From a virus: a stretch of 20,937 nt of DNA. Location of the stretch: positions 1-20,937 of the IMG/VR virus record IMGVR_UViG_3300025127_000351; one strand, given 5' to 3'. The translations under genes and the position numbers were made by a program. This document shows, piece after piece, positions 3,929 to 15,297 of the stretch. Each line of letters begins with the position of its first letter. Position 1 is the stretch's first letter. The notes beneath the pieces were generated by a model. That model was given only the letters and a program-made list of their open reading frames with translations, had not been told where the DNA came from and made no database searches.

Positions 3929-4105
3929 ATGACGGCAGTAGTAAATGGAATCCAATATATCGGAGGCGGCACAGCCCCTGATGAATTTATAAAAAATCAA
4001 GCAGCTACCATGGATGGTACACAAACTGTTGAGAACGGTGTTCTTGCAGGGCCTATTACTATACCTGGTACAATAACAGTAACAGGAACTTTAGTAATAG
4101 TATAA
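3929..4105 (+). CDS. 58-aa fibre-associated small protein
   Basis: A short gene with AGGAG four bases before ATG 3929-3931 and TAA at 4103-4105, whose last base begins the next ATG (TAATG). The protein starts 'MTAVVNGIQYIGGGTAPDEF' and ends with a strongly repetitive beta strand 'GPITIPGTITVTGTLVIV'. That alternating Thr/Ile/Val end, with a Gly every few residues, is typical of short triple-beta-helix or fibre-tip stretches in phage tail proteins. It sits directly before three large glycine-rich adhesin genes, so a fibre cap, attachment or assembly role is plausible but unproven. The ribosome-binding site and both tight junctions support it as a real gene. Confidence 0.75.
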   Translation: MTAVVNGIQYIGGGTAPDEFIKNQAATMDGTQTVENGVLAGPITIPGTITVTGTLVIV

Positions 4106-5484
4106 TGTCAAAGATAGAAGTAAATACAGTTGCACCACAATGCGGAACTACTTTAACACTAGGTGAATCTGGTGATACAGTACAATTAGGAACTGGTGCT
4201 AGTCAATCAGGCTTTGGTAGAACAGGAACTGTAGACTGGGATACAACTCCAAAAACAACAACTTTTACTGCTGTATCTGGAGATGGATTTTTTTGTAACA
4301 CAACATCAGGTGGTTTTACAGCTAACTTACCTGCAGGTGTTGCAGGAGCTATAGTCTCTTTCGCAGATTATGCAGGAACTTGGCAAACAGGTAATCTAAC
4401 AGTATCACCAAATGGTTCAGATAAAATTGGTGGAGTAAATGCAGATATAACTTTAGATACTGAAGGTCAATCAGTAACTTTTGTATTTGCAGATTCAACA
4501 CAAGGTTGGATTAATGTTCAAGATTCAACTTCTAATGAAAGAGCATCAGCTTTTATAACTGCTACTGGCGGAACAATTTCAACTTCAGGAAATGACAAAA
4601 TTCACACATTTACAGGTCCAGGTACTTTTTGTGTATCCTCTATAAGTGGATGCACTGCAGCAAACAATGAAGTTTCTTATATAGTAGTAGCAGGTGGCGG
4701 TGGTGGTGGTGGAGCACATGATTCACCTTGTAACAGAGCAGGAGGTGCTGGTGGAGCAGGTGGTTATAGAGAAACTAAATCACCTGTCACTCCATATACT
4801 GCTAGTCCTTTAGATGGTCAACCGAGTGCACCTAATAGAATTACAGTTACAGCAACAGCTTTTCCTATAACAGTAGGAGCAGGAGGTGCGGGTGGTCGTA
4901 GATCAAGTAATAATTCAGCTAATGGTTCAAATTCAATTTTTTCAACAATAACTTCAGCAGGTGGAGGAAGAGGTGGAATGGCAATTGGTGGTCCAGTTGG
5001 TTTTCCTGGTTGTGGAGGAGATGGTGGTTCAGGAGGCGGTGGTTCTGGTGGTGGAGCTGGTACAGCAAGTGTTAAAGGAGATGGTAATACACCTCCAACA
5101 ACTCCTGCACAAGGATTTGATGGTGGTTGTGGTACTGGTCCATCTGGATCTAGTGGTGGAGGCGGTGGAGCAACTGCTGCTGGTACAGGACCAACAGGTT
5201 CTTCTGATGGTGGAGCAGGTGGTGCTGGAGCAACAAGTTCAATCAATGGAACTCCAACTGCTAGAGCAGGCGGAGGCGGAGGCGGTGGTGCTTCTGGTGG
5301 AGGTGCTTCAGGTGGAACAGGTGGTGGTGGTCCAGGTGGTAGTAGTAACACAGCAGGAACTGCAGGAACAACAAATACCGGCGGTGGAGGTGGTGGAGCA
5401 GGTTTCGGTCCTGATGGATCAACTAATTCTTTAGGTGGCACTGGAGGTTCTGGTATAGTAATAATAAGGTATAAATTTCAATAA
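4105..5484 (+). CDS. Glycine-rich adhesin / tail-fibre protein, paralogue 1 of 3
   Basis: A 459-aa protein starting at a TAATG overlap. Four parts can be seen. Residues 1-45 form an N-terminal anchor ('SKIEVNTVAPQCGTTLTLGE', 'GDTVQLGTGA'). Residues about 52-140 form a knob-like beta module ending 'STQGWINVQD'. Residues about 150-195 form a beta domain with 'KIHTFTGPGTFCV' and 'VSYIVVAGGGG'. Residues about 196-459 are a long Gly-rich region with GGGG, GGSGGGG and GPGG runs, ending 'GGSGIVIIRYKFQ'. The third and fourth parts match the Gly-rich domain common in phage and bacterial surface proteins; packed polyglycine type II helices of this sort form the receptor-binding head of the phage S16 gp38 adhesin. 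Seven Cys residues are scattered through it. I infer host-receptor binding. Two homologous genes follow directly. Confidence 0.8.
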   Translation: MSKIEVNTVAPQCGTTLTLGESGDTVQLGTGASQSGFGRTGTVDWDTTPKTTTFTAVSGDGFFCNTTSGGFTANLPAGVAGAIVSFADYAGTWQTGNLTVSPNGSDKIGGVNADITLDTEGQSVTFVFADSTQGWINVQDSTSNERASAFITATGGTISTSGNDKIHTFTGPGTFCVSSISGCTAANNEVSYIVVAGGGGGGGAHDSPCNRAGGAGGAGGYRETKSPVTPYTASPLDGQPSAPNRITVTATAFPITVGAGGAGGRRSSNNSANGSNSIFSTITSAGGGRGGMAIGGPVGFPGCGGDGGSGGGGSGGGAGTASVKGDGNTPPTTPAQGFDGGCGTGPSGSSGGGGGATAAGTGPTGSSDGGAGGAGATSSINGTPTARAGGGGGGGASGGGASGGTGGGGPGGSSNTAGTAGTTNTGGGGGGAGFGPDGSTNSLGGTGGSGIVIIRYKFQ

Positions 5485-5489
5485 TTATG
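5446..5489 (+). repeat. Conserved gene-end repeat, copy 1
   Basis: The 3' end of the first adhesin gene, from the GGTTCTGG that encodes Gly-Ser-Gly through the next ATG, is nearly identical to 6876-6919. It encodes GSGIVIIRYK plus the two-base gap and the start of the next gene. The repeat could guide homologous recombination between adhesin copies. Confidence 0.75.
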
Positions 5490-6914
5490 ACAAGTAAAAT
5501 TAAAGTAGATAATATAAATAAAGTTTCAGATGATTCTAACATTATAAAAAAATGTGGATCAACAACAACAGTAGGATCAGGATCTGGTAATACAATTGTT
5601 GTATGTGGTTCAACAATTACAATTGGAAGATGTGGTGCTAGTGTTGCTCTTGCATCAGGCGCTTCTCAAACAGGTTTTGGTAGAGAAGGTTCCGTTGATT
5701 GGCAGACAGGTTCAATTAAAACAGCTGCTACTTTTACTGCAGCGAGCGGTGAGGGTTATTTCGTAGACACGTCTAGTAATGCTATTACAGCAAATTTACC
5801 TGCAGGATCAGCTGGAGCGATTGTTGCTTTTTCTGATTATGCAAGAAATTTTGCAACAAATAATTTAACAATTTCACCAAATGGATCAGATAAAATTGGT
5901 GGTATTGGTGAAGATGCAACATTAGATGTTAATGGTCAAGCAACAACGTTAGTATATGTTGATGGAACTAAAGGTTGGATTAATGTTCAAAATGCAGAGG
6001 ACACAGAAACAGGAGTTCCTCCTTTTATTGATGCTACAGGTGGAACAATTACTTGTTCAGGAAATTGTAAAATTCATACTTTTACAGGTCCAGGAACTTT
6101 TGCAGTAAGTTCAATAGCAACTTGTTGTGCTCCAGTTAATAATTTAGTTAGTTTTCTTGTAGTTGCAGGTGGTGGCGGTGGTGCTCACGGACAAGTTTGT
6201 AGATATACAGGAGGTGGAGGTGGAGCTGGAGGAGTAAGAGAAGTAGTAAGTCCAGGTTCTCCCTACACAGGTTCTCCTTTAAATGGTTATCCAACACCAG
6301 GAAACAGAATTACAGTAACAGCAACAAGTTTTCCAATAACAGTAGGTGCCGGTGGAGCGGAAGCTCCTCCAACTGGTCCAGGAAGAGGAGAACCTGGAAG
6401 TGTAAGCACTTTTTCAACAATCTCATCTGCCGGAGGTGGATACGGTGGAAACGGTGATTATCAACCCGCTGGAGCTAGCGGTGGATCAGGTGGTGGTGGA
6501 TCAGGAGCAAGTAGTGGTGGAGCAGGTAATACACCTCCCGTAACTCCTTCTCAAGGAAACTCTGGTGGCACTGGTTGTGGGGCGTGGGCTAGTGGACGAA
6601 ACGGTGGTGGTGGAGGTGGTGGCGCTGGTGCGGTTGGTCAAACTGGTAGTCCTTCGGTTGGTGGTGCTGGTGGTACAGGTGTTGAAACAAATATTCCAGG
6701 AGGTCCTCTTAAAGTAGGAGGAGGTGGACAAGGTTCATCAACCGCTACAGTTGTTCCATGCGCTCCTTTTACTGATTTTGGAGGTGGAGCTTGGAAAACT
6801 GCAGGAACAGCTAATACTGGTGGTGGTGGTGGCGGTGGAGATTTGGGAGGTGGTCCAGGTAATGGTAGAGCTGGTGGTTCTGGTATAGTAATAATAAGAT
6901 ATAAAGCAAGATAA
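5487..6914 (+). CDS. Glycine-rich adhesin / tail-fibre protein, paralogue 2 of 3
   Basis: A 475-aa homologue of the gene before it, starting two bases after that stop, with no near ribosome-binding site, so likely coupled. The N-terminal anchor is longer and holds three Cys-Gly rungs (Cys23, Cys40, Cys49) where paralogue 1 has one. The knob module ends 'GTKGWINVQNAED'; the next domain has 'CKIHTFTGPGTFAV' followed by a Cys-Cys pair. The Gly-rich region includes GGGGGGGAG and GGGGGGGDLGGGPG runs, several Pro-rich loops ('GNTPPVTPSQG') and ends 'GGSGIVIIRYKAR'. It is the most Cys-rich of the three paralogues. Receptor binding is inferred from the architecture. Loop sequences between glycine runs differ from the neighbours, as expected if each copy has a different receptor or serves as alternative fibre tip. 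Confidence 0.8.
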   Translation: MTSKIKVDNINKVSDDSNIIKKCGSTTTVGSGSGNTIVVCGSTITIGRCGASVALASGASQTGFGREGSVDWQTGSIKTAATFTAASGEGYFVDTSSNAITANLPAGSAGAIVAFSDYARNFATNNLTISPNGSDKIGGIGEDATLDVNGQATTLVYVDGTKGWINVQNAEDTETGVPPFIDATGGTITCSGNCKIHTFTGPGTFAVSSIATCCAPVNNLVSFLVVAGGGGGAHGQVCRYTGGGGGAGGVREVVSPGSPYTGSPLNGYPTPGNRITVTATSFPITVGAGGAEAPPTGPGRGEPGSVSTFSTISSAGGGYGGNGDYQPAGASGGSGGGGSGASSGGAGNTPPVTPSQGNSGGTGCGAWASGRNGGGGGGGAGAVGQTGSPSVGGAGGTGVETNIPGGPLKVGGGGQGSSTATVVPCAPFTDFGGGAWKTAGTANTGGGGGGGDLGGGPGNGRAGGSGIVIIRYKAR

Positions 6915-6919
6915 TTATG
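6876..6919 (+). repeat. Conserved gene-end repeat, copy 2
   Basis: Second copy of the GSGIVIIRYK-encoding gene end plus the next start codon. It differs from copy 1 mainly where the last residues (AR instead of FQ) are encoded. Confidence 0.75.
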
Positions 6920-8293
6920 AGTGAAATAAAAGTAAATAAAATTAGTCCAAGAACAGCGTGTGGTACAGTTACATTAGGAGATAGTGGAGATACGTTCACA
7001 ATTCCTGCAGGTGCAACAATTAATAACCAAGGAACGGCAACAAACTTTGGTGCAACAGGTTCTGCATCGTGGACAACAACAGTTAAGACAGGAGATTTCA
7101 CAGCGGTTGCTGGTGAGGGATATTTTGTAGATACATCAAGTGGTGAAATTGATGTTGCATTACCTTCTGGAACAGCAGGAGCTGTAATAGCCATTGCAGA
7201 TTATGCAAAAAATTTTGGTACAAATAATGTAATTTTAGTTCAAAATGGTTCAGATAAAATTGGTGGTTCAACTAATAATGCAAAATTACAAACAGACGGT
7301 ATAGCTGTAACATTAATTTTTATAGATTCTACAAAAGGTTGGATTGTAACTGATGATGGAAATCAATCATCTGCTGACACTAACCCATTCTTAGTTGCTT
7401 CAGGCGGAACTGAAACAACATCAGGTAACGATAAAATTCACACATTTACAGGTCCTGGAACTTTTACAGTTTCTAAGGCAGCTGTAGATGCAGCAAATAA
7501 TCAAGTTTCATATATAGTAGTAGCTGGTGGCGGAGGAGGTGGTGGCGTTAGAGGCGCTGGAGGTGGAGCTGGTGGTTTTAGAGAAGATAAATCTCCAGTC
7601 ACTCCTTACACTGCATCACCTTTAGATGGTGCTGGAAATATAACAGTTTCAGCAACATCTTTCCCAATAACAGTTGGAGCTGGTGGAAGTGGTGGTGATG
7701 GTGGCAGCACTCCCGGATCAAATGGAAATCCTTCAGTTTTTTCAACAATAACTTCAACTGGTGGTGGTAAAGGTGGAATGGTAACTACACCTGAATCCCC
7801 AGGACAAGCAGGAGGTTCTGGTGGTGGCGGAACTTGTGGTCCAGGAGGATCAGGAAATAGTCCTCCAGTTAGTCCAGCACAAGGAAATCCAGGTGGAGGT
7901 GGAGCAGGAGGTCCTATTTATGGAGCTGGTGGTGGAGGAGGAGCAACAGCAACAGGTGCAACTGGTTTACCAGGTGCGGGCACTCCCTCTCTTTCAAATG
8001 GTGGAGCTGGTGGAGCAGGAGCTTCAACAGAGATTTCAGGATCAGCAGTTACAAGAGCTGGTGGAGGAGGTGGAAGTTATTATACTAATAATAATATAGG
8101 AAGTGGCGGACTTGGTGGATCTGGTGGTGGAGGACCAGGCGGAGGTCAATCACCTGGAGCTGGCGCAGGAACAGCAGGAACAGCAAATACTGGCGGTGGT
8201 GGCGGTGGAGGTTGGCATCCTGGACCTTGTGCATGTGAGACTGGTGGTGCAGGTGGCTCAGGAATAGTAATAATAAGGTATAAATTTCAATAG
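6917..8293 (+). CDS. Glycine-rich adhesin / tail-fibre protein, paralogue 3 of 3
   Basis: A 458-aa third paralogue, beginning two bases after the previous stop. The N-terminus 'SEIKVNKISPRTACGTVTLG' then 'GDTFTIPAGATI' is the classic anchor of marine myovirus and podovirus tail-fibre proteins. The knob module spans about residues 50-150 ('STKGWIVTDDG'). The 'KIHTFTGPGTFTV' domain is followed by Gly-rich sequence with a distinctive Tyr/Asn loop ('GGGGSYYTNNNIGSGG') and a His/Cys cluster near the end ('GWHPGPCACETGG'), then 'GGSGIVIIRYKFQ'. This is the last adhesin; a normal intergenic gap with a good ribosome-binding site follows. Receptor binding is inferred; the loops between glycine helices are the parts most likely to contact the host. 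Confidence 0.8.
   Translation: MSEIKVNKISPRTACGTVTLGDSGDTFTIPAGATINNQGTATNFGATGSASWTTTVKTGDFTAVAGEGYFVDTSSGEIDVALPSGTAGAVIAIADYAKNFGTNNVILVQNGSDKIGGSTNNAKLQTDGIAVTLIFIDSTKGWIVTDDGNQSSADTNPFLVASGGTETTSGNDKIHTFTGPGTFTVSKAAVDAANNQVSYIVVAGGGGGGGVRGAGGGAGGFREDKSPVTPYTASPLDGAGNITVSATSFPITVGAGGSGGDGGSTPGSNGNPSVFSTITSTGGGKGGMVTTPESPGQAGGSGGGGTCGPGGSGNSPPVSPAQGNPGGGGAGGPIYGAGGGGGATATGATGLPGAGTPSLSNGGAGGAGASTEISGSAVTRAGGGGGSYYTNNNIGSGGLGGSGGGGPGGGQSPGAGAGTAGTANTGGGGGGGWHPGPCACETGGAGGSGIVIIRYKFQ
8255..8293 (+). repeat. Conserved gene-end repeat, copy 3
   Basis: Third copy of the GSGIVIIRYKFQ-encoding gene end. The amino-acid sequence is kept, with several silent changes, and the downstream sequence is different because no further adhesin follows. 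Confidence 0.7.
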
Positions 8294-8332
8294 TTGAATG
8301 GTAATTAAAACTAATATATAAGGAGAAACATT

Positions 8333-8788
8333 ATGGCACATTTTGCAAAACTAGGAGCTAACGGAAAAGTTATTCAAGTATTAACACTTGATAACAAAGA
8401 TATGTTAAATGCTGATGGTGTAGAGGATGAAGCAGTAGGTCAACAATATTTAGAACATCACAACAATTGGCCTGCGCAAATGTGGATTCAAACTTCATAC
8501 AATACAACAAGTAATACACATAAATCTGGTGATAACTCAAAAGCATTTAGAGGAAACTACGCAGGTATTGGTTATGAGTGGGATGAAGATAATCAAATCT
8601 TTTGGCCTAAAAAACCATATGCATCTTGGGTAAAAAATACATCAAGTGCACAATGGGAATCACCAATCGGTGCTGCTCCTGCATTAACTGCAGAACAAAC
8701 TTCACAAAATAAAGCTGGTACTCACGGTTGGCATTATGTTTGGAATGAAGATGGCCAGTCTTGGGACTTGACAAACAGTAACGCCTAA
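8333..8788 (+). CDS. Conserved phage protein linked to fibre genes, function unknown
   Basis: A 151-aa protein with AGGAG seven bases before ATG. The N-terminus 'MAHFAKLGANGKVIQVLTL' and the central 'WIQTSYNTTSN', 'FRGNYAGIGYEWDEDNQIF', 'PYASWVKN' signature are familiar to me from cyanophages and pelagiphages, where the protein is encoded among tail and structural genes. The C-terminus repeats an aromatic theme ('HGWHYVWNEDGQSWDL'). It is acidic and rich in Trp and Tyr, without Cys, and has no membrane segment. The residues look like a carbohydrate- or protein-contacting surface, but that is a guess. Here it separates the adhesin cluster from the oxygenase cluster. No enzyme motif is visible. 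Confidence 0.75.
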   Translation: MAHFAKLGANGKVIQVLTLDNKDMLNADGVEDEAVGQQYLEHHNNWPAQMWIQTSYNTTSNTHKSGDNSKAFRGNYAGIGYEWDEDNQIFWPKKPYASWVKNTSSAQWESPIGAAPALTAEQTSQNKAGTHGWHYVWNEDGQSWDLTNSNA

Positions 8789-8806
8789 ATTACAAAGGTA
8801 TGTGGT

Positions 8807-9310
8807 ATGCAGAAGAAAGTATTATCTGAACAATCATTATATTATGGTGACGTGGCGATGCCCAAAGATTGGGATATTGACCGAGATAAATTACAAAACG
8901 ATATTTTAAAATCACAAGTTACAGATTCACCTTTTCCATTTTCACGAACGTTCGATATGCTAAGCACTTATATAAGAGAGCATATAAATTTAAACTATGA
9001 CTTTACTTTAGTTCAAAAAGAAACGTGGGGCAATATGTATAAGCCCCAAGAGACAACAATTCCTTTATTAAATATAGATCCTGTAGATTTGAGAAACTCT
9101 CCTGATTACACACTTCTTTATGGGGTTAATGTTAAAAATTGTTTTGTGCGAATACATTACGAAGACAATAGACGTAAAGGTAGAAGTTGGGACATAGAAC
9201 TTACCAATAATAAATTTATTATGTTTCCATCAACTAATATGTATTACATAACTAATAACCAACAGGATAGTTTAAATTTTGTACAAACAATAACTTATGA
9301 ATATATCTAA
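8807..9310 (+). CDS. Degenerate 2OG-Fe(II) oxygenase-like fold protein (tentative)
   Basis: A 167-aa protein. An ATG at 8800 is in another frame and gives only a few codons; AAAGG at 8794-8798 is correctly spaced for ATG 8807. The C-terminal half ('LLYGVNVKNCFVRIHY', 'WDIELTNNKFIMFPSTNMYYI', 'NFVQTITYEYI', read as separate blocks) resembles the last strands of the double-stranded beta-helix of 2OG oxygenases, including the 'FPS' turn that precedes the distal iron-binding His in its neighbours. Here that His position appears to be Tyr147, and no Arg follows at the usual place, so it is probably not an active enzyme of that type. The N-terminal half ('YYGDVAMPKDWDIDRDKL', 'ETWGNMYKP') looks like a conserved marine-phage family. 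It overlaps the next gene by 14 bases. Fold assignment is tentative. Confidence 0.5.
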   Translation: MQKKVLSEQSLYYGDVAMPKDWDIDRDKLQNDILKSQVTDSPFPFSRTFDMLSTYIREHINLNYDFTLVQKETWGNMYKPQETTIPLLNIDPVDLRNSPDYTLLYGVNVKNCFVRIHYEDNRRKGRSWDIELTNNKFIMFPSTNMYYITNNQQDSLNFVQTITYEYI

Positions 9311-9929
9311 TTATTACTGGTATTTTAGTGGTGTGCTTACACCTAAATTTTGTGATGAAGTTATTGAATATGCTAATGCACAAAAAGAAGTTATGGCTAG
9401 AACTGGTGGTTATGGTGATAAAAAATTAAATAAAGAAGAAGTTTTAAATATGCAAAGAAAAAGAAAATCAGATTTAGTATGGTTAAATGATACTTGGATA
9501 TATAAGGAATTACATCCGTATGTGCATGAGGCAAATAGAAATGCAGGTTGGAATTTTGAATGGGACAGATCGGAATCTTGTCAGTTTACAAAATATAAAC
9601 TAAACCAATACTACGATTGGCATTGTGATAGCTGGGATAAACCTTATGATAAACCAAATACTGAAGATCACGGTAAGATTAGAAAACTATCTATGACCTG
9701 TCAGTTAACAGATGGATCAGAATATAAAGGTGGTGAATTAGAATTTGATTTTAGAAATTATGACCCACATATGAGAGACGAATCAAAACATAGAGTGCAA
9801 TGTAAAGAAATATTACCAAAAGGATCTATCATTGTATTTCCTAGTTTTGTGTGGCATAGAGTTAAACCAGTAACATCAGGCACAAGATATAGTCTTGTGG
9901 TATGGCATTTAGGGAGGCCTTTTAAATAA
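9297..9929 (+). CDS. 2OG-Fe(II) oxygenase, prolyl-hydroxylase-like
   Basis: A 210-aa protein overlapping the previous gene by 14 bases. It has the full active-site set of the 2-oxoglutarate/Fe(II) dioxygenases: His109-Cys-Asp111 in 'YYDWHCDSW', distal His187 in 'FPSFVWHRV', and Arg197 in 'GTRYSLVVW', ten residues on, for binding the 2-oxoglutarate carboxylate. 'LSMTCQLTDGSEYKGGELEF' between the two sites is typical of the prolyl 4-hydroxylase/PKHD-type subgroup, which hydroxylates protein side chains; cyanophage homologues are known, without proven substrates. The N-terminal 60 residues include a helix ('PKFCDEVIEYANAQ') common to the family. It is the clearest enzyme in this window. The reaction class (2OG + O2 + substrate giving hydroxylated product, succinate and CO2) is firm; the substrate is unknown. 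Confidence 0.88.
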   Translation: MNISNYYWYFSGVLTPKFCDEVIEYANAQKEVMARTGGYGDKKLNKEEVLNMQRKRKSDLVWLNDTWIYKELHPYVHEANRNAGWNFEWDRSESCQFTKYKLNQYYDWHCDSWDKPYDKPNTEDHGKIRKLSMTCQLTDGSEYKGGELEFDFRNYDPHMRDESKHRVQCKEILPKGSIIVFPSFVWHRVKPVTSGTRYSLVVWHLGRPFK

Positions 9930-10561
9930 TGTATATAAATAGTTATTTTCCAACTGTAATATGGAGCGAAGAAAAACCAGAGTTTGTAAAATCTTTAAAC
10001 AAAGCTAGTAATAAATATATTGCTGATGCTCGTAAAAGAGAAAAAGAATTTATAAAAAAACACGGTGACTTTGGAAGATCCTATCATTCAACATCACTTA
10101 CAGGTGACAATGATTTTTTAGATTTTAGAAATTATATTGGTCAAAAGTCTTGGGAATATTTAGACCACCAAGGTTATAATATGCAACAATACACAACTAT
10201 GTTTAGTGAGTTGTGGGTACAAGAGTTTGCTAAAAAAGGTGGTGGACATCACTCTGCTCATATACATTGGAATCAACATGTATCGGGTTTCTATTTTTTA
10301 AAATGTAGTGATAAAACTTCATTCCCTATATTTCACGAACCAAAGACTGGTGCAAGAACAACAAAATTAAAAATGAAACCAGACTTAAAAGGTGTATGGC
10401 CTGGTCACGAACAATTTCACCTTAAACCAAAACCAGGAACATTAATTATATTTCCAGGATATTTAGAGCACGAGTTTTCTGTGGATTTTGGTATAGAACC
10501 ATTTAGGTTTATACATTGGAATATACAAGCTGTGCCGAAAGAAATGGCAAAAGATGTATAA
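9929..10561 (+). CDS. Putative 2OG-Fe(II) oxygenase (2OG-FeII_Oxy_5-like)
   Basis: A 210-aa protein joined to the previous gene by a TAATG overlap. The N-terminus 'YFPTVIWSEE' is the short strand with which this subgroup usually begins. 'AHIHWNQHVSGFYFLKC' places His111 and His113 before Ser119-Gly120, matching the 'HxH.....SGxY' signature of the 2OG-FeII_Oxy_5 family; 'GTLIIFPGYLEHEF' gives the distal His181 and 'EPFRFIHWN' gives Arg193. Compared with the family, Pro-Gly/Asn after the HxH is replaced by Trp-Asn, so the metal site is somewhat atypical. It shares this layout with the gene that follows, although the two have diverged strongly. Substrate is unknown; protein side chains, sugars or lipids are all conceivable. 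Confidence 0.78.
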   Translation: MYINSYFPTVIWSEEKPEFVKSLNKASNKYIADARKREKEFIKKHGDFGRSYHSTSLTGDNDFLDFRNYIGQKSWEYLDHQGYNMQQYTTMFSELWVQEFAKKGGGHHSAHIHWNQHVSGFYFLKCSDKTSFPIFHEPKTGARTTKLKMKPDLKGVWPGHEQFHLKPKPGTLIIFPGYLEHEFSVDFGIEPFRFIHWNIQAVPKEMAKDV

Positions 10562-11105
10562 TATTTTTAGTTCATATATACACGAAGAATTTTTTAATTT
10601 TAACACAAAACAATTTAAAAAAGAAATTTTAGATTTAAAAACAAAAGACAAAGGAAGAATAATAAGTAATTATGGTGGTTGGCAAAGTAATGATTTTAGA
10701 ACAGTTCCAAAAGAATTTAAAAGTCTATTTAATAAAATTAGTGCAAATGTTGAAAAAGTGGAAAAGCATTTATCACTTTCAAAAAAATTAACATTATATA
10801 ATTTATGGTACAATGTTAATGGTTTAAGTTCTTTTAATAAACCACACACTCATCCAGGAAGTATTGTATCAGGAGTGTATTATATTTCTATTCCTCAAAA
10901 TTCAGGAAATATAGTTTTTTTAAATCAAGATATGGATAAATTTTACACTTTAATAGATTCATACAACAATTATAATTCATCAACTTGGAAAATAATTTCA
11001 AAAGAAAATTTATGTATTTTTTTTCCATCTTATTTAAGACATTATGTTGAACCAAATTTTAATAAAAAAGAAAGAATTAGTATAAGTTTTAATTATGGCT
11101 TTTAA
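10554..11105 (+). CDS. Putative 2OG-Fe(II) oxygenase (2OG-FeII_Oxy_5 family)
   Basis: A 183-aa protein overlapping the upstream gene by eight bases and the downstream gene by eleven. It carries a good match to the 2OG-FeII_Oxy_5 signature: 'HTHPGSIVSGVYYI' with His98, His100 and Ser106-Gly107, a short 'GNIVFLNQD' strand, 'CIFFPSYLRHYVEPN' with distal His163, and Arg174 in 'KERISISFN'. The first 90 residues are Lys/Asn/Phe-rich. Base composition here is even more AT-rich than in neighbours, with many A and T runs, which could mean a separate origin within the cassette. Active enzyme is likely from the residues; no substrate can be named. Confidence 0.82.
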   Translation: MYNIFSSYIHEEFFNFNTKQFKKEILDLKTKDKGRIISNYGGWQSNDFRTVPKEFKSLFNKISANVEKVEKHLSLSKKLTLYNLWYNVNGLSSFNKPHTHPGSIVSGVYYISIPQNSGNIVFLNQDMDKFYTLIDSYNNYNSSTWKIISKENLCIFFPSYLRHYVEPNFNKKERISISFNYGF

Positions 11106-11754
11106 AAAAAATAAATATACAATTATTCGTCAAGCGATATCAAAAGATCTAGCAGCTTTTGTTTCAAATTATTTTTTAATGCAAAAACAAGTTTATGATA
11201 CTTGTAGACAATCAAGATATTTTTCTCCGTTTGAAACCATCATAGGATATTATGAAAGTGAAAATGAGCAGATACCAAATACATATTCTCAATATGCTAA
11301 CATGGCTATGGAAACATTATTGCTTAAATGTCAACCAGGTATGGAAAAAGCTACAGGATTAAAATTATATCCTGCTTATACCTACGCAAGAATATATAAA
11401 AAAGGTGATGAACTTAAAAGACATAAAGATAGATTTAGTTGTGAGATATCTACAACTATGAATCTTGGTGGTGATGATTGGCCTATATATCTAAGCCCTA
11501 ATGAAAATGTAGGTGCACCAGATGGTAAAAATATTACAGCAGCTAGCAAAGCAAAAGGGGTTAGGGTAGATCTAAAACCTGGTGATATGTTAGTTTATAG
11601 GGGGGTGGAGTTAGAACATTGGAGAGAAAAATTCAAAGGGAAAGAATGCGTACAAGTTTTTCTGCATTATAACAATCGTAAAACACCGGGAGCTAGAGAT
11701 AATATGTTCGACAAACGTCCACATTTAGGTCTTCCTTCCTGGTTTAAACGATGA
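11095..11754 (+). CDS. Putative 2OG-Fe(II) oxygenase, fourth active-type member
   Basis: A 219-aa protein starting eleven bases before the end of the preceding gene. 'YARIYKKGDELKRHKDRF' supplies the His110-x-Asp112 iron site, 'STTMNLGGDDWPIYLSP' is the following strand pair, and 'GDMLVYRGVELEHW' holds distal His175. The usual 2OG-binding Arg after the distal His is not obvious; Lys181 or Lys183 lies nearby, so cosubstrate binding may be altered. 'LKPGDMLVY' is a conserved turn of the family. This subgroup is familiar from marine cyanophages and bacteria and differs from the HxH-type members just upstream. The gene is the last of the cluster and is followed by a TATAAT box and a terminator-like hairpin. 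Substrate is unknown. Confidence 0.8.
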   Translation: MAFKKNKYTIIRQAISKDLAAFVSNYFLMQKQVYDTCRQSRYFSPFETIIGYYESENEQIPNTYSQYANMAMETLLLKCQPGMEKATGLKLYPAYTYARIYKKGDELKRHKDRFSCEISTTMNLGGDDWPIYLSPNENVGAPDGKNITAASKAKGVRVDLKPGDMLVYRGVELEHWREKFKGKECVQVFLHYNNRKTPGARDNMFDKRPHLGLPSWFKR

Positions 11755-11760
11755 TATAAT
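11732..11760 (+). promoter_or_regulatory. Possible promoter with perfect TATAAT box
   Basis: A perfect TATAAT occurs at 11755-11760, immediately after the stop of the last oxygenase gene. The -35 region at the right distance (TTCCTT, 11732-11737, 17-base spacer) is poor. If active, transcription would start around 11767, just at the hairpin described next. In AT-rich DNA such boxes arise by chance, but this one is in the only sizeable gap between operon halves. Confidence 0.35.
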
Positions 11761-11768
11761 CTTTAGAT

Positions 11769-11806
11769 GGAGGCAGGGCACCACCACATACCCCCTGTCT
11801 CCTTTT
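11769..11806 (+). terminator. Rho-independent terminator-like hairpin
   Basis: GGAGGCAGGG (11769-11778) pairs with CCCTGTCTCC (11793-11802) over ten base pairs with a single G-U, around a 14-base C/A-rich loop, and is followed by TTTT. It is the most GC-rich short stretch in a very AT-rich region, read on the + strand. It would end or reduce transcription of the adhesin-oxygenase half. Its closeness to TATAAT also allows a role as a structured 5' leader. Confidence 0.65.
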
Positions 11807-11816
11807 AAGGAATTTT

Positions 11817-12266
11817 ATGAGTTTAGGATTTGACGCAATATCAACATTACCATTTGCAACCTCTACGACTGAGGGTAATGTTTCAGTAGTTGTAACAGGT
11901 AATCAGGTTTCAATTAGTATTGGTAGCGCTGGAGTCATTGCAGATTCAGTTACAGAAAATTTAACACCAAATCAAGTAACTTTAGGACTTGGAACCTTAA
12001 GTATTAGAACAGACGTAGATCACACTGTTACAGGATCTCAAGTAACTTTAAATACAGGTAACGTAACAGTTAATATAGATGTAGATGTTTTACCTTCAGG
12101 TGTTGACTTGACCTTGGCTACAGGTAATGTTACAATAACTGCTGACGCAAATATAAGTCCTACAGGTTCTCAGTTAACATTAGATACAGTAGAACCAGGA
12201 GTTATTACGTGGAACGATATAGTACCAGGAGCAACAATGGTTTGGACACCAATAAAACCTTATTAA
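11817..12266 (+). CDS. Repeat-containing beta-rich virion protein
   Basis: A 149-aa protein with AAGGA five bases before ATG. About five units recur every 21-23 residues, each starting TGNQVSIS-like (residues 27, 50, 72, 93 and 116: 'TGNQVSIS', 'TPNQVTLG', 'TGSQVTLN', 'PSGVDLTL', 'TGSQLTLD') and followed by a 'GNVTVNID'/'GNVTITAD' strand. This is a beta-solenoid or stacked-sandwich pattern. The end 'DIVPGATMVWTPIKPY' is a tail familiar from many small phage structural proteins beside fibre genes. There are no Cys residues and almost no Lys. A fibre, plug or decoration role is inferred; no enzymatic function is suggested. Confidence 0.75.
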   Translation: MSLGFDAISTLPFATSTTEGNVSVVVTGNQVSISIGSAGVIADSVTENLTPNQVTLGLGTLSIRTDVDHTVTGSQVTLNTGNVTVNIDVDVLPSGVDLTLATGNVTITADANISPTGSQLTLDTVEPGVITWNDIVPGATMVWTPIKPY

Positions 12267-12267
12267 T

Positions 12268-13038
12268 ATGGCATCAACATTTTCATCAGATTTATCATTA
12301 GAACTTGTAGCAACCGGCGAAAAAGCAGGTCTATGGGGAGCTATCACAAATACTAATTTACAATTATTACAAACAGCAACGTCAGGTTATGTAGAAGTAA
12401 CTTTAAGTTCTGGTAATGTTAACTTAGATTTATCAGACGGATCGGCGACCGCGAATGGTAAAAACCTTTACATCAAAGTTGTTGGAACTTTATCTGGTGA
12501 TGCTAGTTTAACAATGCCTGCAACTACATCTGGTGGTAATGCTAACAGAGTATTTTTTGTAGAAGATGGAACTACTAGAGGTGGAGCTGGTGATAGTTAT
12601 ACAGTAACTTTATTAACAACAGGTCAAAGCGCATCTACACAAGTGCCTCTTCCAGAGGGTGCAAAAGTTTTAGTTTATTCTAGAGGTAGTGTTCCAGCTA
12701 CAACTTTAGCCATGATGGAAAAAGGATTTACAGAAGTAACTGCAGCTAGCAAAACAGCATACACAGCAGTTGCTGGAGATCAAATCGGTGTTGACACTGT
12801 TGCTAACATTGTAACAATTACACTTCCTGCATCACCATCACAAGGCGATGAAGTAACTATTATGGATGTATCTGCATCTAATGGCTTTGGAACTAACAAA
12901 TGTGTTGTTGCAAGGAACGGATCAAATATTCAAGGTGGTACATCTGATTTAGATTTAACTTCAAACAATCAATGTGTAACACTAATCTTTACAACTGCCA
13001 CAAAAGGCTGGCAAATAAAAACTAATAGTACATCATAG
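12268..13038 (+). CDS. Tail-fibre protein with shared knob module
   Basis: A 256-aa protein starting one base after the previous stop. The N-terminal 45 residues ('STFSSDLSLELVATGEKAG', 'LWGAITNTNLQLLQ') form a signature seen in fibre proteins of very many phages, where it is thought to attach the fibre to the tail. The middle (about 48-160) is a beta-rich stalk. Residues about 163-253 ('YTAVAGDQIGVDT', 'VVARNGSNIQGGTSDLDLTS', 'ATKGWQIKT') match the knob module of the three glycine-rich adhesins in the same order ('SPNGSDKIGG', 'STQGWINVQ'), so this protein uses the same building block without the Gly-rich tip. It is probably part of the same fibre apparatus or an alternative fibre. Confidence 0.75.
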   Translation: MASTFSSDLSLELVATGEKAGLWGAITNTNLQLLQTATSGYVEVTLSSGNVNLDLSDGSATANGKNLYIKVVGTLSGDASLTMPATTSGGNANRVFFVEDGTTRGGAGDSYTVTLLTTGQSASTQVPLPEGAKVLVYSRGSVPATTLAMMEKGFTEVTAASKTAYTAVAGDQIGVDTVANIVTITLPASPSQGDEVTIMDVSASNGFGTNKCVVARNGSNIQGGTSDLDLTSNNQCVTLIFTTATKGWQIKTNSTS

Positions 13039-13047
13039 GAGTAAAGC

Positions 13048-15297
13048 ATGCTTACTAAAATTAAGTTTGCTCCTGGTATTGACAAACAAGACACTGCTGT
13101 AGGAGCAGAGGGTCGTTGGGTTGATTCTGATAATGTTAGATTTAGATATGGTCTTCCCGAAAAAGTAGGTGGTTGGCAATCATTACTTAATGATTCTATT
13201 GTTGGTGTTGCTAGAAAACAACATGCTTTTGTAGATACTGAAGGTAATAGATATGTTGCACTTGGCACAGATAAATTTTTATTATTGTATTTTGAAGGTC
13301 AGCTTTTTGATATAACACCTTTTAGATGTAATAACGCAGGAGTTGTAGATAGTTTTACTAGTTCAACATTAGCAACAAATAGTACATCAGTCAAAACTTG
13401 TACAATTACAACAAGCACAGATCATGATTTATCTGTGGGAGATATTATAGAACTATCATCAGTTACTTTACCAAGCGGCACAGGGTTAAACGCAAGTGAT
13501 TTTGAAGATAAATTATTTCAAGTATTAACTGTACCTACTCCTACAACATTTACAATTAACTCTTTAAATCAAGCATCTGCAGTTATATCAACAGGTGGTA
13601 GTATGACTGTTAAAGTCTACCAACCTATTGGTCCTGCAGCACAAACTTATGGTTATGGTTTTGGTATTGGAAACTATGGTGGTACAATTACCGGTGCTTT
13701 AACAACAACTCTTAACGGAGCGTTGCTCGCGGATACAGCGGGTACAGGTGGATCAGGGACAGCAATCACTTTAACATCAACAACTGGTTTTCCAACAACA
13801 GGCACAATAGCTGTTGGTGATGAATTAATTACATACACAGGTATAGCTGGATCTGACATAACAGGTATTACTAGAGGAGCATTAGGCACAGCAACATTTG
13901 GTACATCAAATGGACAAGCTCACAGTGGTGGAGCAACAGTTACAAACGCTACAAATTTTTCTGGATTTGGTAGTGCAGTTGAAGCGTCATCAGTAACACT
14001 GGAACCAGGACTTTGGTCATTAAGTAATTTTGGTGAAGTATTAGTTGCAACAATTGCAAACGGTAAAACATTTACCTGGAACGCTGGTATTACAGCAAGA
14101 CTTACGACAAGAGCCTCCATGTTAACATCTGGTTTTGAAACGCGAATAGATGCAGCTACAGATAGTGGTAATCCTACAGCTACTAGAGTTACACTTATAT
14201 CACCAACAACAAGACACTTAATTCATCTTGGAACAGAAGTAACTATAGGAAGTCCGGATACACAAGATGATATGTTTATAAGATTTTCTGAAGACGAAAA
14301 TATAAATAAATATACACCACAAGCCACCAACACTGCAGGCACACAAAGACTACAAGACGGTACAAAAATTGTAGGTGGTTTAGTTGCAAAAGAAAATATT
14401 TTGATTTGGACGGACAATGCATTGTACACAATGAAATTTGTTGGAGCTCCTTTTACATTTGGTTTTGAACAGGTTGGTACAAACTGTGGATTGATTGGTA
14501 AAAATGCAGCAATTGAAATTGATGGTGTTGCATACTGGATGGGAAATAATGGATTCTTTTCTTTTGATGGTACGGTTAATACATTACCTTGCTCTGTTGA
14601 AGATTATGTCTATGACGATTGTAATACTACAAAAGGTCAACAAATAAATGCAGGTATTAATAATTTGTTTACAGAGGTAATATGGTGGTATCCAACTCAA
14701 AATTCAGATTTTAATGACAGATACGTTGTTTATAATTATGGCCAAGACAATGCAAAATTACCTATGGGTAATTGGTATACAGGCACAAACACAAATTCTA
14801 TTAGAACCACTTGGATTGATTCATTAGTATATCCTAAACCATATGCTACAGCTTACAATAGTTCTAACACAGGAACATTTCCATCAGTTATTGGTGAAAC
14901 AGGTTTAGGTCAAACTGTATTTTTTGAACATGAAATAGGAACAGACCAAGTTAATCCGGATGGTAGTGTTACCGCTTTAACATCTTTTATAAAATCATTT
15001 AGTTTTTCTTTGCAAAAAGATCAAAGCGAAATATTTTTAGCTATGAGAAGATTTTTACCTAACTTTAAAGTATTAACTGGTAATAATCAGATTACATTAG
15101 CAATAAAAGATTTTCCTGCTGATAGTGATACACAAACTTCATTAAGTCCTTTTACAATTACATCTACTACAACCAAAGTGGATACACGTGCAAGAGGGCG
15201 ATATGCAAATATAAAAATAGAAAATACTGGTGTAGGTGAATCGTGGCGATTTGGTACATTTCAAGTGGATCTACAACCTGATGGAAGGAGAGGATAA
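13048..15297 (+). CDS. Nozzle / tail-tube-like structural protein (P22 gp10-type, probable)
   Basis: A 749-aa protein with AGGAG six bases before ATG, overlapping the previous stop. The N-terminus ('KIKFAPGIDKQDTAVGAEG', 'RWVDSDNVRFRYGLPEKVGG', 'QHAFVDTEGNRYVALGTD') is a conserved podovirus sequence that starts a beta-propeller-like fold, and 'YWMGNNGFFSFDGTVNTLPC' and 'EVIWWYPTQNSDFNDRYVVY' are later blades. Such proteins form the nozzle at the end of the short tail in P22-like and related phages. Two inserted modules look foreign to the propeller: about 105-190 ('TDHDLSVGDIIELSSV', 'TPTTFTINSL') and about 230-305 ('VGDELITYTGI', 'ITGITRGALGT', 'AHSGGATV'), both common add-on domains in marine phage virion proteins. 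Structural role is likely; the nozzle label is inference. Confidence 0.65.
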   Translation: MLTKIKFAPGIDKQDTAVGAEGRWVDSDNVRFRYGLPEKVGGWQSLLNDSIVGVARKQHAFVDTEGNRYVALGTDKFLLLYFEGQLFDITPFRCNNAGVVDSFTSSTLATNSTSVKTCTITTSTDHDLSVGDIIELSSVTLPSGTGLNASDFEDKLFQVLTVPTPTTFTINSLNQASAVISTGGSMTVKVYQPIGPAAQTYGYGFGIGNYGGTITGALTTTLNGALLADTAGTGGSGTAITLTSTTGFPTTGTIAVGDELITYTGIAGSDITGITRGALGTATFGTSNGQAHSGGATVTNATNFSGFGSAVEASSVTLEPGLWSLSNFGEVLVATIANGKTFTWNAGITARLTTRASMLTSGFETRIDAATDSGNPTATRVTLISPTTRHLIHLGTEVTIGSPDTQDDMFIRFSEDENINKYTPQATNTAGTQRLQDGTKIVGGLVAKENILIWTDNALYTMKFVGAPFTFGFEQVGTNCGLIGKNAAIEIDGVAYWMGNNGFFSFDGTVNTLPCSVEDYVYDDCNTTKGQQINAGINNLFTEVIWWYPTQNSDFNDRYVVYNYGQDNAKLPMGNWYTGTNTNSIRTTWIDSLVYPKPYATAYNSSNTGTFPSVIGETGLGQTVFFEHEIGTDQVNPDGSVTALTSFIKSFSFSLQKDQSEIFLAMRRFLPNFKVLTGNNQITLAIKDFPADSDTQTSLSPFTITSTTTKVDTRARGRYANIKIENTGVGESWRFGTFQVDLQPDGRRG

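Follow-up and report, generated by a model that had tools for sequence, protein, structure and literature searches.

SAR11 bacteria are the most abundant bacteria in the ocean. The subject of this work is an array of overlapping genes for proteins of the 2-oxoglutarate (2OG)-Fe(II) oxygenase type, located at positions 8807-11754 of a viral DNA stretch of 20,937 bases (IMG/VR record IMGVR_UViG_3300025127_000351), which is referred to as the window. Co-located 2OG genes in HTVC023P-type pelagiphages have already been published (PMC9599517) and were treated there as metabolic auxiliary metabolic genes (AMGs) with a ferrochelatase partner, whereas they are described here as one array in an adhesin module. 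A cyanophage carrying 24 2OG genes has also been reported, and according to the same report the function of multiple phage 2OG genes has not been specifically investigated (PMC9602691). Based on gene order and a homologous structural module, the window is an HTVC023P-type Pelagibacter podovirus, with 023Pt_psg01 and Pelagibacter phage HTVC023P as the nearest isolates. Both belong to the same group and have the same core order of the array (PMC9599517), and g1 and g5, its first and last genes, are 72-86 % identical to the counterparts in MW574966/MN698239. The window differs from both isolates in carrying the gene g4, in place of which 023Pt_psg01 has a phrog_274 insert.

Clues to a putative SAR11 host are that HTVC023P grows on HTCC1062 and that a close g5 homologue occurs on the Pelagibacteraceae-assigned contigs L267 and L269. 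Contig L267 (QCMS01000007.1), which at 59,509 bases is as long as a phage genome, contains a g5 homologue together with the hairpin that follows the array. Its record is attributed to Pelagibacteraceae AG-422-I02, so that it is a possible direct host link. Among other described phages, HTVC008M, Mosig, Sf-CH11 and Syn10 resemble the window in having a run of 2OG genes that includes one g5 homologue near tail fibre or neck genes, several of them with a VirX1-type halogenase. They differ from it by other subfamilies and gene orders, the absence of such a hairpin, and extra scattered 2OG genes.

The array of the window is part of a locus with a near-invariant order among the IMG/VR loci, which were gathered by similarity to the window proteins and form a sample biased towards close relatives. 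This order comprises glycine-rich adhesins, g0, g1, g2, g3, g5, a hairpin, h1, h2 and a structural protein. On the plus strand of the window, the near-invariant left neighbour g0 (8333-8788), which encodes a small W-rich protein matching phrog_7759 (2.1e-32), is followed by the core genes g1 (8807-9310), g2 (9297-9929) and g3 (9929-10561), then by g4 (10554-11105) and the core gene g5 (11095-11754). These are the five overlapping open reading frames (ORFs) of the sequence-only reading, whose coordinates and named residues proved exact, and the overlaps g1/g2, g2/g3, g3/g4 and g4/g5 amount to 14, 1, 8 and 11 bases. The genes g0 and g1 are adjacent in 142 of 144 loci. Among the 122 loci that span g0 to g5, 64 contain exactly g1, g2, g3 and g5, and the number of array genes is four in 69 and five to ten in 50. 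The impression that such a run is unusual was therefore mistaken, as it is normal in HTVC023P-type pelagiphages.

Additional genes are found at defined seams, with inserts in 20/147 loci at g1/g2, 14/118 at g2/g3, 33/128 at g3/g5 (including the g4 of the window) and 2/144 at g0/g1. No insert was found in any locus at the g5/h1 junction, where two apparent cases (L069 and L074) were rejected as h1 homologues. The g1/g2 overlap is 14 bases long in 136 of the 137 loci without an insert, and most inserts examined overlap their neighbours again, by 4-14 bases. As g4 is missing from most relatives, the g4 of the window is an accessory insert in the g3/g5 slot, and the five genes do not form a fixed unit. 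The 78 insert ORFs form 19 clusters, nearly all of which were assigned by Pfam or PHROGs to the oxygenase superfamily (PF13759/PF13640) or to cupin/JmjC-like proteins with a double-stranded beta-helix (DSBH). Outside these groups are a tryptophan halogenase (PF04820, 9.3e-111) with VirX1 (6qgm) as its best solved relative, a sulfotransferase and a small methyltransferase, all three likewise enzymes of a modifying kind. VirX1-like halogenase inserts occupy the g2/g3 slot in L067, L068, L076 and L190, and a shorter ORF of this type lies at g0/g1 in L061. The sulfotransferase insert was observed in L026 (1907-2710) and the methyltransferase inserts in L008, L027 and L039; both could represent further adhesin-modifying activities.

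A scan for the hairpin alone revealed the locus L339, in which the whole array is exchanged. Between the same flanks, this locus (6180-8943, minus strand) carries five different oxygenase-type genes, namely two of PF13759, two of phrog_274 and one of PF13640, and no g5 homologue was found upstream of its hairpin. Its flanks are glycine-rich genes and g0 (phrog_7759) upstream, and the hairpin, h1, h2 and phrog_3287 downstream, with h1 and h2 assigned by tblastn and position. The phage L304 also combines the hairpin with an entirely different set of oxygenase-type genes. Thus, the conserved feature is the place and not the gene set. All detected 2OG-type genes of five complete podovirus-type genomes lie in one 1.2-4.9 kb stretch of the tail module, with a rough random-placement P of about 0.0002-0.005 per genome that assumes independently placed genes. 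The cluster lies within a virion module among tail and adhesin genes, as had been proposed, and its constant position beside the adhesins is not that of a cluster scattered at random. T4-like phages also have stretches of 2OG genes next to genes of the tail fibre, neck or LamG type, and the unrelated marine phages Sf-CH11, Mosig, HTVC008M and HTVC033P have 2OG genes and a 'ferrochelatase', in some cases with a halogenase, beside tail-fibre, adhesin or neck genes. The cyanophage Sf-CH11 pairs a halogenase with an oxygenase array beside adhesin genes, as podoviral pelagiphages do.

All five genes encode a predicted oxygenase fold, which was assigned by Pfam for g2-g4 and by predicted structure for g1 and g5. 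The Pfam matches exceed the gathering cut-off of 27 bits and comprise PF13640 for g2 (55.7 bits, E 1e-14) and PF13759 for g3 (46.7 bits, E 4.5e-12) and g4 (76.2 bits, E 2.9e-21). In addition, g4 matches TIGR02466 with 110 bits at a cut-off of 62.5 and the structure 2rg4 at 2.4e-9 in a sequence search, and g2 and g3 fall below the curated NCBIfam cut-offs. By family, g2 is a PF13640/PKHD-like protein (phrog_61) with the PKHD/YbiX/PiuC hydroxylases as its nearest curated relatives, and g3 and g4 (both phrog_81) are of the PF13759/TIGR02466 type. 2OG oxygenases bind 2OG through a basic residue located about 10 positions beyond their distal His. The complete set H109/D111/H187/R197 of g2 is invariant in 20/20 diverse homologues, as is H111/H113/H181/R193 of g3 in 15/15, and the g4 family retains H98/H100/H163 in 17/17 sequences with R or K at position R174 in most. 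The metal triad HxD/E...H is present in the alignments of g2 and g5, and g3 and g4 have an invariant HxH...H triad that may bind Fe(II). Oxygenases of this superfamily catalyse reactions that depend on Fe(II), 2OG and O2, and g2-g4 are putative enzymes of this kind.

Since g1 and g5 had no hit in the Pfam search, AlphaFold2 models were built from natural alignments and their folds compared by Foldseek and VIA. The g1 model (predicted local distance difference test, pLDDT, 88.1; predicted template modelling score, pTM, 0.86) is closest in VIA to 2rg4 (Z 14.7) and 3bvc (Z 14.6), with about 150 residues aligned at a root-mean-square deviation (rmsd) of 3.0-3.1, and Foldseek found 3bvc at 3e-6. 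AlkB is also among its fold neighbours. Both 2rg4 and 3bvc, which were deposited as uncharacterized proteins, are of the PF13759 type according to their sequence similarity to g4, and g1 itself matches the g4-family profile weakly (E 2.8e-4, probability 41 %). However, the HxD/HxH...H metal ligand set was not found in g1 across 27 homologues. Because of its nearest folds, and in agreement with the weak profile match, g1 looks like a PF13759-type protein that has lost its site, that is, a putative pseudo-oxygenase.

The g5 model (pLDDT 85.7, pTM 0.82) is most similar to prolyl hydroxylases. Foldseek ranked 4iw3 (3.6e-9) and 4j25 (4.6e-9) best, with the complex of Pseudomonas putida prolyl-4-hydroxylase (P4H) and EF-Tu at the top, and VIA gave Z scores of about 15-16 with SnoN, PHD2 and P4H over 160-190 residues (rmsd 2.4-3.9). 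The prolyl-4-hydroxylases (P. putida P4H, PHD2 and the viral vCPH) resemble g5, and more weakly g1, in their fold and have the HxD...H motif in common with g5, in which H110/D112/H175 is invariant in 26/26 diverse homologues. In contrast, they have no detectable sequence similarity to g5, for which neither single-sequence nor profile searches found a relative among solved structures, and g5 lacks their conserved basic residue at H+10. Together with the invariant sites of g2-g5, these models bear out the expectation of the sequence-only reading that four genes have separate active-site sets and the fifth only the fold, as a DSBH was found in both models. It had further proposed at least three subfamilies that were assembled rather than merely duplicated. 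The array does span at least three oxygenase subfamilies, and recent tandem duplication was rejected for the core because g1, g2, g3/g4 and g5 come from different families. Profile comparison detected no similarity between g5 and g2 or between g1 and g3 and identified g3 and g4 as distant relatives, so that assembly is supported.

Two family labels are not compatible with these results. The g5 family phrog_2954 is annotated as 'ferrochelatase', and this label underlies the analyses in PMC9599517 and PMC11561400, the latter of which uses phrog_2954 as a category. The ferrochelatase family PF00762 is absent from 9/9 phage records and matches 9/14 control genomes, whereas phrog_2954 matches 8/9 phages and 0/14 control genomes. 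Given the absence of PF00762, the predicted oxygenase fold and the HxD...H site, the ferrochelatase assignment was rejected. The commonest insert, phrog_274, is labelled 'DNA endonuclease V', and no match to the endonuclease V families PF04493 and PF03013 was found in the genes so labelled. Instead, these inserts have an invariant H94/D96/H138/R149 site and match a PF13759-type profile with a probability of 96 %, and this label was rejected as well. Overall, phrog_2954, phrog_274 and probably phrog_3531 and phrog_2297 are oxygenase-fold families with ferrochelatase or endonuclease labels that are spreading into published AMG analyses.

The array is capped by a hairpin at 11760-11811 (plus strand) with two stacked stems and a ~14-nt loop (CACCACCACATACC), a minimum free energy of -25.1 and a z-score of -4.4. 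It was missed by a simple terminator scan because of its long loop. A hairpin with a CCACC loop is present at this spot in 119 of the 172 loci with enough sequence, among them L279, L280 and L281, and comprises 35 distinct inner stems. Both sides change in 17/19 pairs, 92.8 % of the hairpin cells pair as against 45-61 % when the controls are slid, and its score was not attained by any shuffle. The loop ACCACC is nearly invariant. A covariance model detected it at most once per genome, and just past g5 in those genomes in which g5 was located. Of the 72 usable hits of a loop-pattern scan of viral contigs, 70 lie 15 bases past a g5 homologue, and the remaining two follow another 2OG-type gene (L339 by Pfam; L304 read from sequence). 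Rfam contains no family matching anywhere in the window, and no terminator-like structure was found between the adhesins and the array, before g0 or at the array-internal junctions.

A strong hairpin indeed lies where the earlier proposal placed a terminator, and its conservation exceeds that of an ordinary terminator. Its stem is strong and GC-rich, and mostly just 3-4 T follow, which are drawn into the conserved lower stem. It may act as a terminator or processing site of an adhesin-oxygenase message, and it is a candidate for a new structured RNA element. The invariant loop suggests that the RNA has a bound partner. That CACCACC is complementary to GGTGGTG glycine codons, which are frequent in the adhesin-like genes, is only an idea. 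Sequestration of a ribosome binding site for h1 was also considered, since the 3' arm overlaps AAGGA ahead of the h1 start codon at 11817. This is possible in the window, but it was rejected as a general function because the AGGAG of HTVC023P lies outside the stem.

The upstream flank of the array consists of the tandem glycine-rich adhesin-like genes gly1 (4105-5484), gly2 (5487-6914) and gly3 (6917-8293). The first matches Pfam Gly_rich_2 at 1.2e-12 and phrog_2295, and gly3 matches phrog_2295 and tail families. Glycine-rich genes precede the array in most relatives whose sequence extends that far. The region of gly1-3 (4105-8293) is dense in GGTGGT codon runs, with 8-13 per kb compared to about 1-2 elsewhere. 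Downstream of the hairpin, h1 (11817-12266), h2 (12268-13038) and a phrog_3287 virion structural protein (13048-15297) follow, and all flanking genes are on the plus strand.

Taken as a whole, the array is a dedicated, content-swappable locus of 2OG-Fe(II)-type oxygenases within a tail-adhesin module, and its most likely role would be to modify the phage's own adhesin or tail proteins, a reading to which we give an even chance. Its position and the predicted structures argue for this role, and protein hydroxylases, namely PHD2 and the EF-Tu-bound P4H of P. putida, are among the nearest folds of g5. A single late message would serve for the translation of both the adhesins and the array, with the overlapping stop and start codons coupling the translation of the array genes. 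The enzymes would then hydroxylate or otherwise oxidise side chains of adhesin or tail proteins before or during assembly, several oxygenases acting on shared virion protein substrates and g1 serving as a non-catalytic partner or scaffold. Lineages would come to differ in adhesin chemistry as members are exchanged and, now and then, a halogenase, sulfotransferase or methyltransferase is acquired. More tentatively, the locus can be viewed as a hairpin-bounded 'modification island', in which swapped oxidising, halogenating and sulfating enzymes would diversify the adhesins combinatorially and covalently after translation.

Several observations weigh against adhesin modification. A gene neighbourhood indicates co-expression at best and says nothing of the substrate, and late expression is itself deduced. 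The closest fold says little on the substrate either, because the small-molecule enzymes SnoN, AviO1 and EctD appear in the same fold lists. The triad of g3 and g4 consists of three His instead of His-Asp/Glu-His. In g5, position 185 (H175+10) is variable, and as the usual conserved Arg/Lys about 10 residues past the second His is missing, whether it uses 2OG is uncertain, although the invariant residues R99, R113 and R177 may replace it. The core enzymes are well conserved and the adhesins widely variable, so any recognised motif must be conserved. T4-like phages also carry scattered 2OG genes far from tail genes, and the g5-like gene of S-P4 sits in the replication module.

According to proposals in the literature on cyanophages and pelagiphages, the genes might instead be AMGs that consume or redirect host 2-oxoglutarate or iron, or that have a part in the nitrogen, haem or iron metabolism of the host. 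This would agree with the published 2OG/NtcA model (PMC3037559), the proposal of 'ferrochelatase' and 2OG genes as partner AMGs (PMC9599517), the seasonal enrichment of phrog_61 and phrog_2954 (PMC11561400) and the increase of iron uptake genes during HTVC027P infection (PMC12753301). We nevertheless consider it unlikely, since the partner is not a ferrochelatase and a 2OG drain needs neither four to ten subfamilies, nor a pseudo-oxygenase, nor a fixed site by the adhesins. The top Foldseek match of g5 to the P4H-EF-Tu complex and the listing of the ribosomal oxygenases MINA53 and NO66 would fit host-directed enzymes that hydroxylate translation factors, the ribosome or surface proteins to take over the host or to exclude superinfection. 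However, takeover genes are usually early, while the array lies in the virion module with no terminator-like structure separating it from the adhesins, and its content differs among phages of presumably related hosts, which leaves this explanation with a similarly low probability.

Some of the DSBH proteins might also be virion components or assembly chaperones with catalysis being secondary, and the retention of g1 in nearly every locus despite the loss of all ligands is in line with this. On the other hand, the metal residues of g2-g5 are kept without exception in the sampled homologues. The part of the S-SCSM1 virion proteome report considered here names 29 structural, 13 unknown-function and 3 likely non-structural proteins, none of which is called a 2OG oxygenase (PMC9602691). 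A structural role is therefore judged slightly less probable still. Nucleic-acid modification or repair by AlkB/TET-like enzymes or an 'endonuclease V' is suggested by AlkB among the g1 fold neighbours and by the PHROG endonuclease labels of phrog_274 and phrog_2297. It is very improbable, as PF04493 and PF03013 miss the labelled genes, the phrog_274 inserts have an invariant HxD...H...R and align with PF13759-type proteins, and the genes lie in the tail module and not in the replication module.

The fixed core with its insertion seams, the exchange of the whole array, the correction of two labels and the hairpin appear to be new, as no description of them was found. A search for phage tail hydroxylation in the literature collection used here gave no match. 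With the corrected labels, the haem and ferrochelatase interpretation falls away in the analyses of PMC9599517 and PMC11561400, and a second common family loses its endonuclease V label. Furthermore, the genes are now tied to a specific hypothesis, the modification of virion adhesins, and these virion proteins are also a possible place to look for the natural substrate of VirX1-type viral halogenases. If true, the modification island would be a chemical counterpart of the sequence diversification of tail fibres, in very abundant ocean phages.

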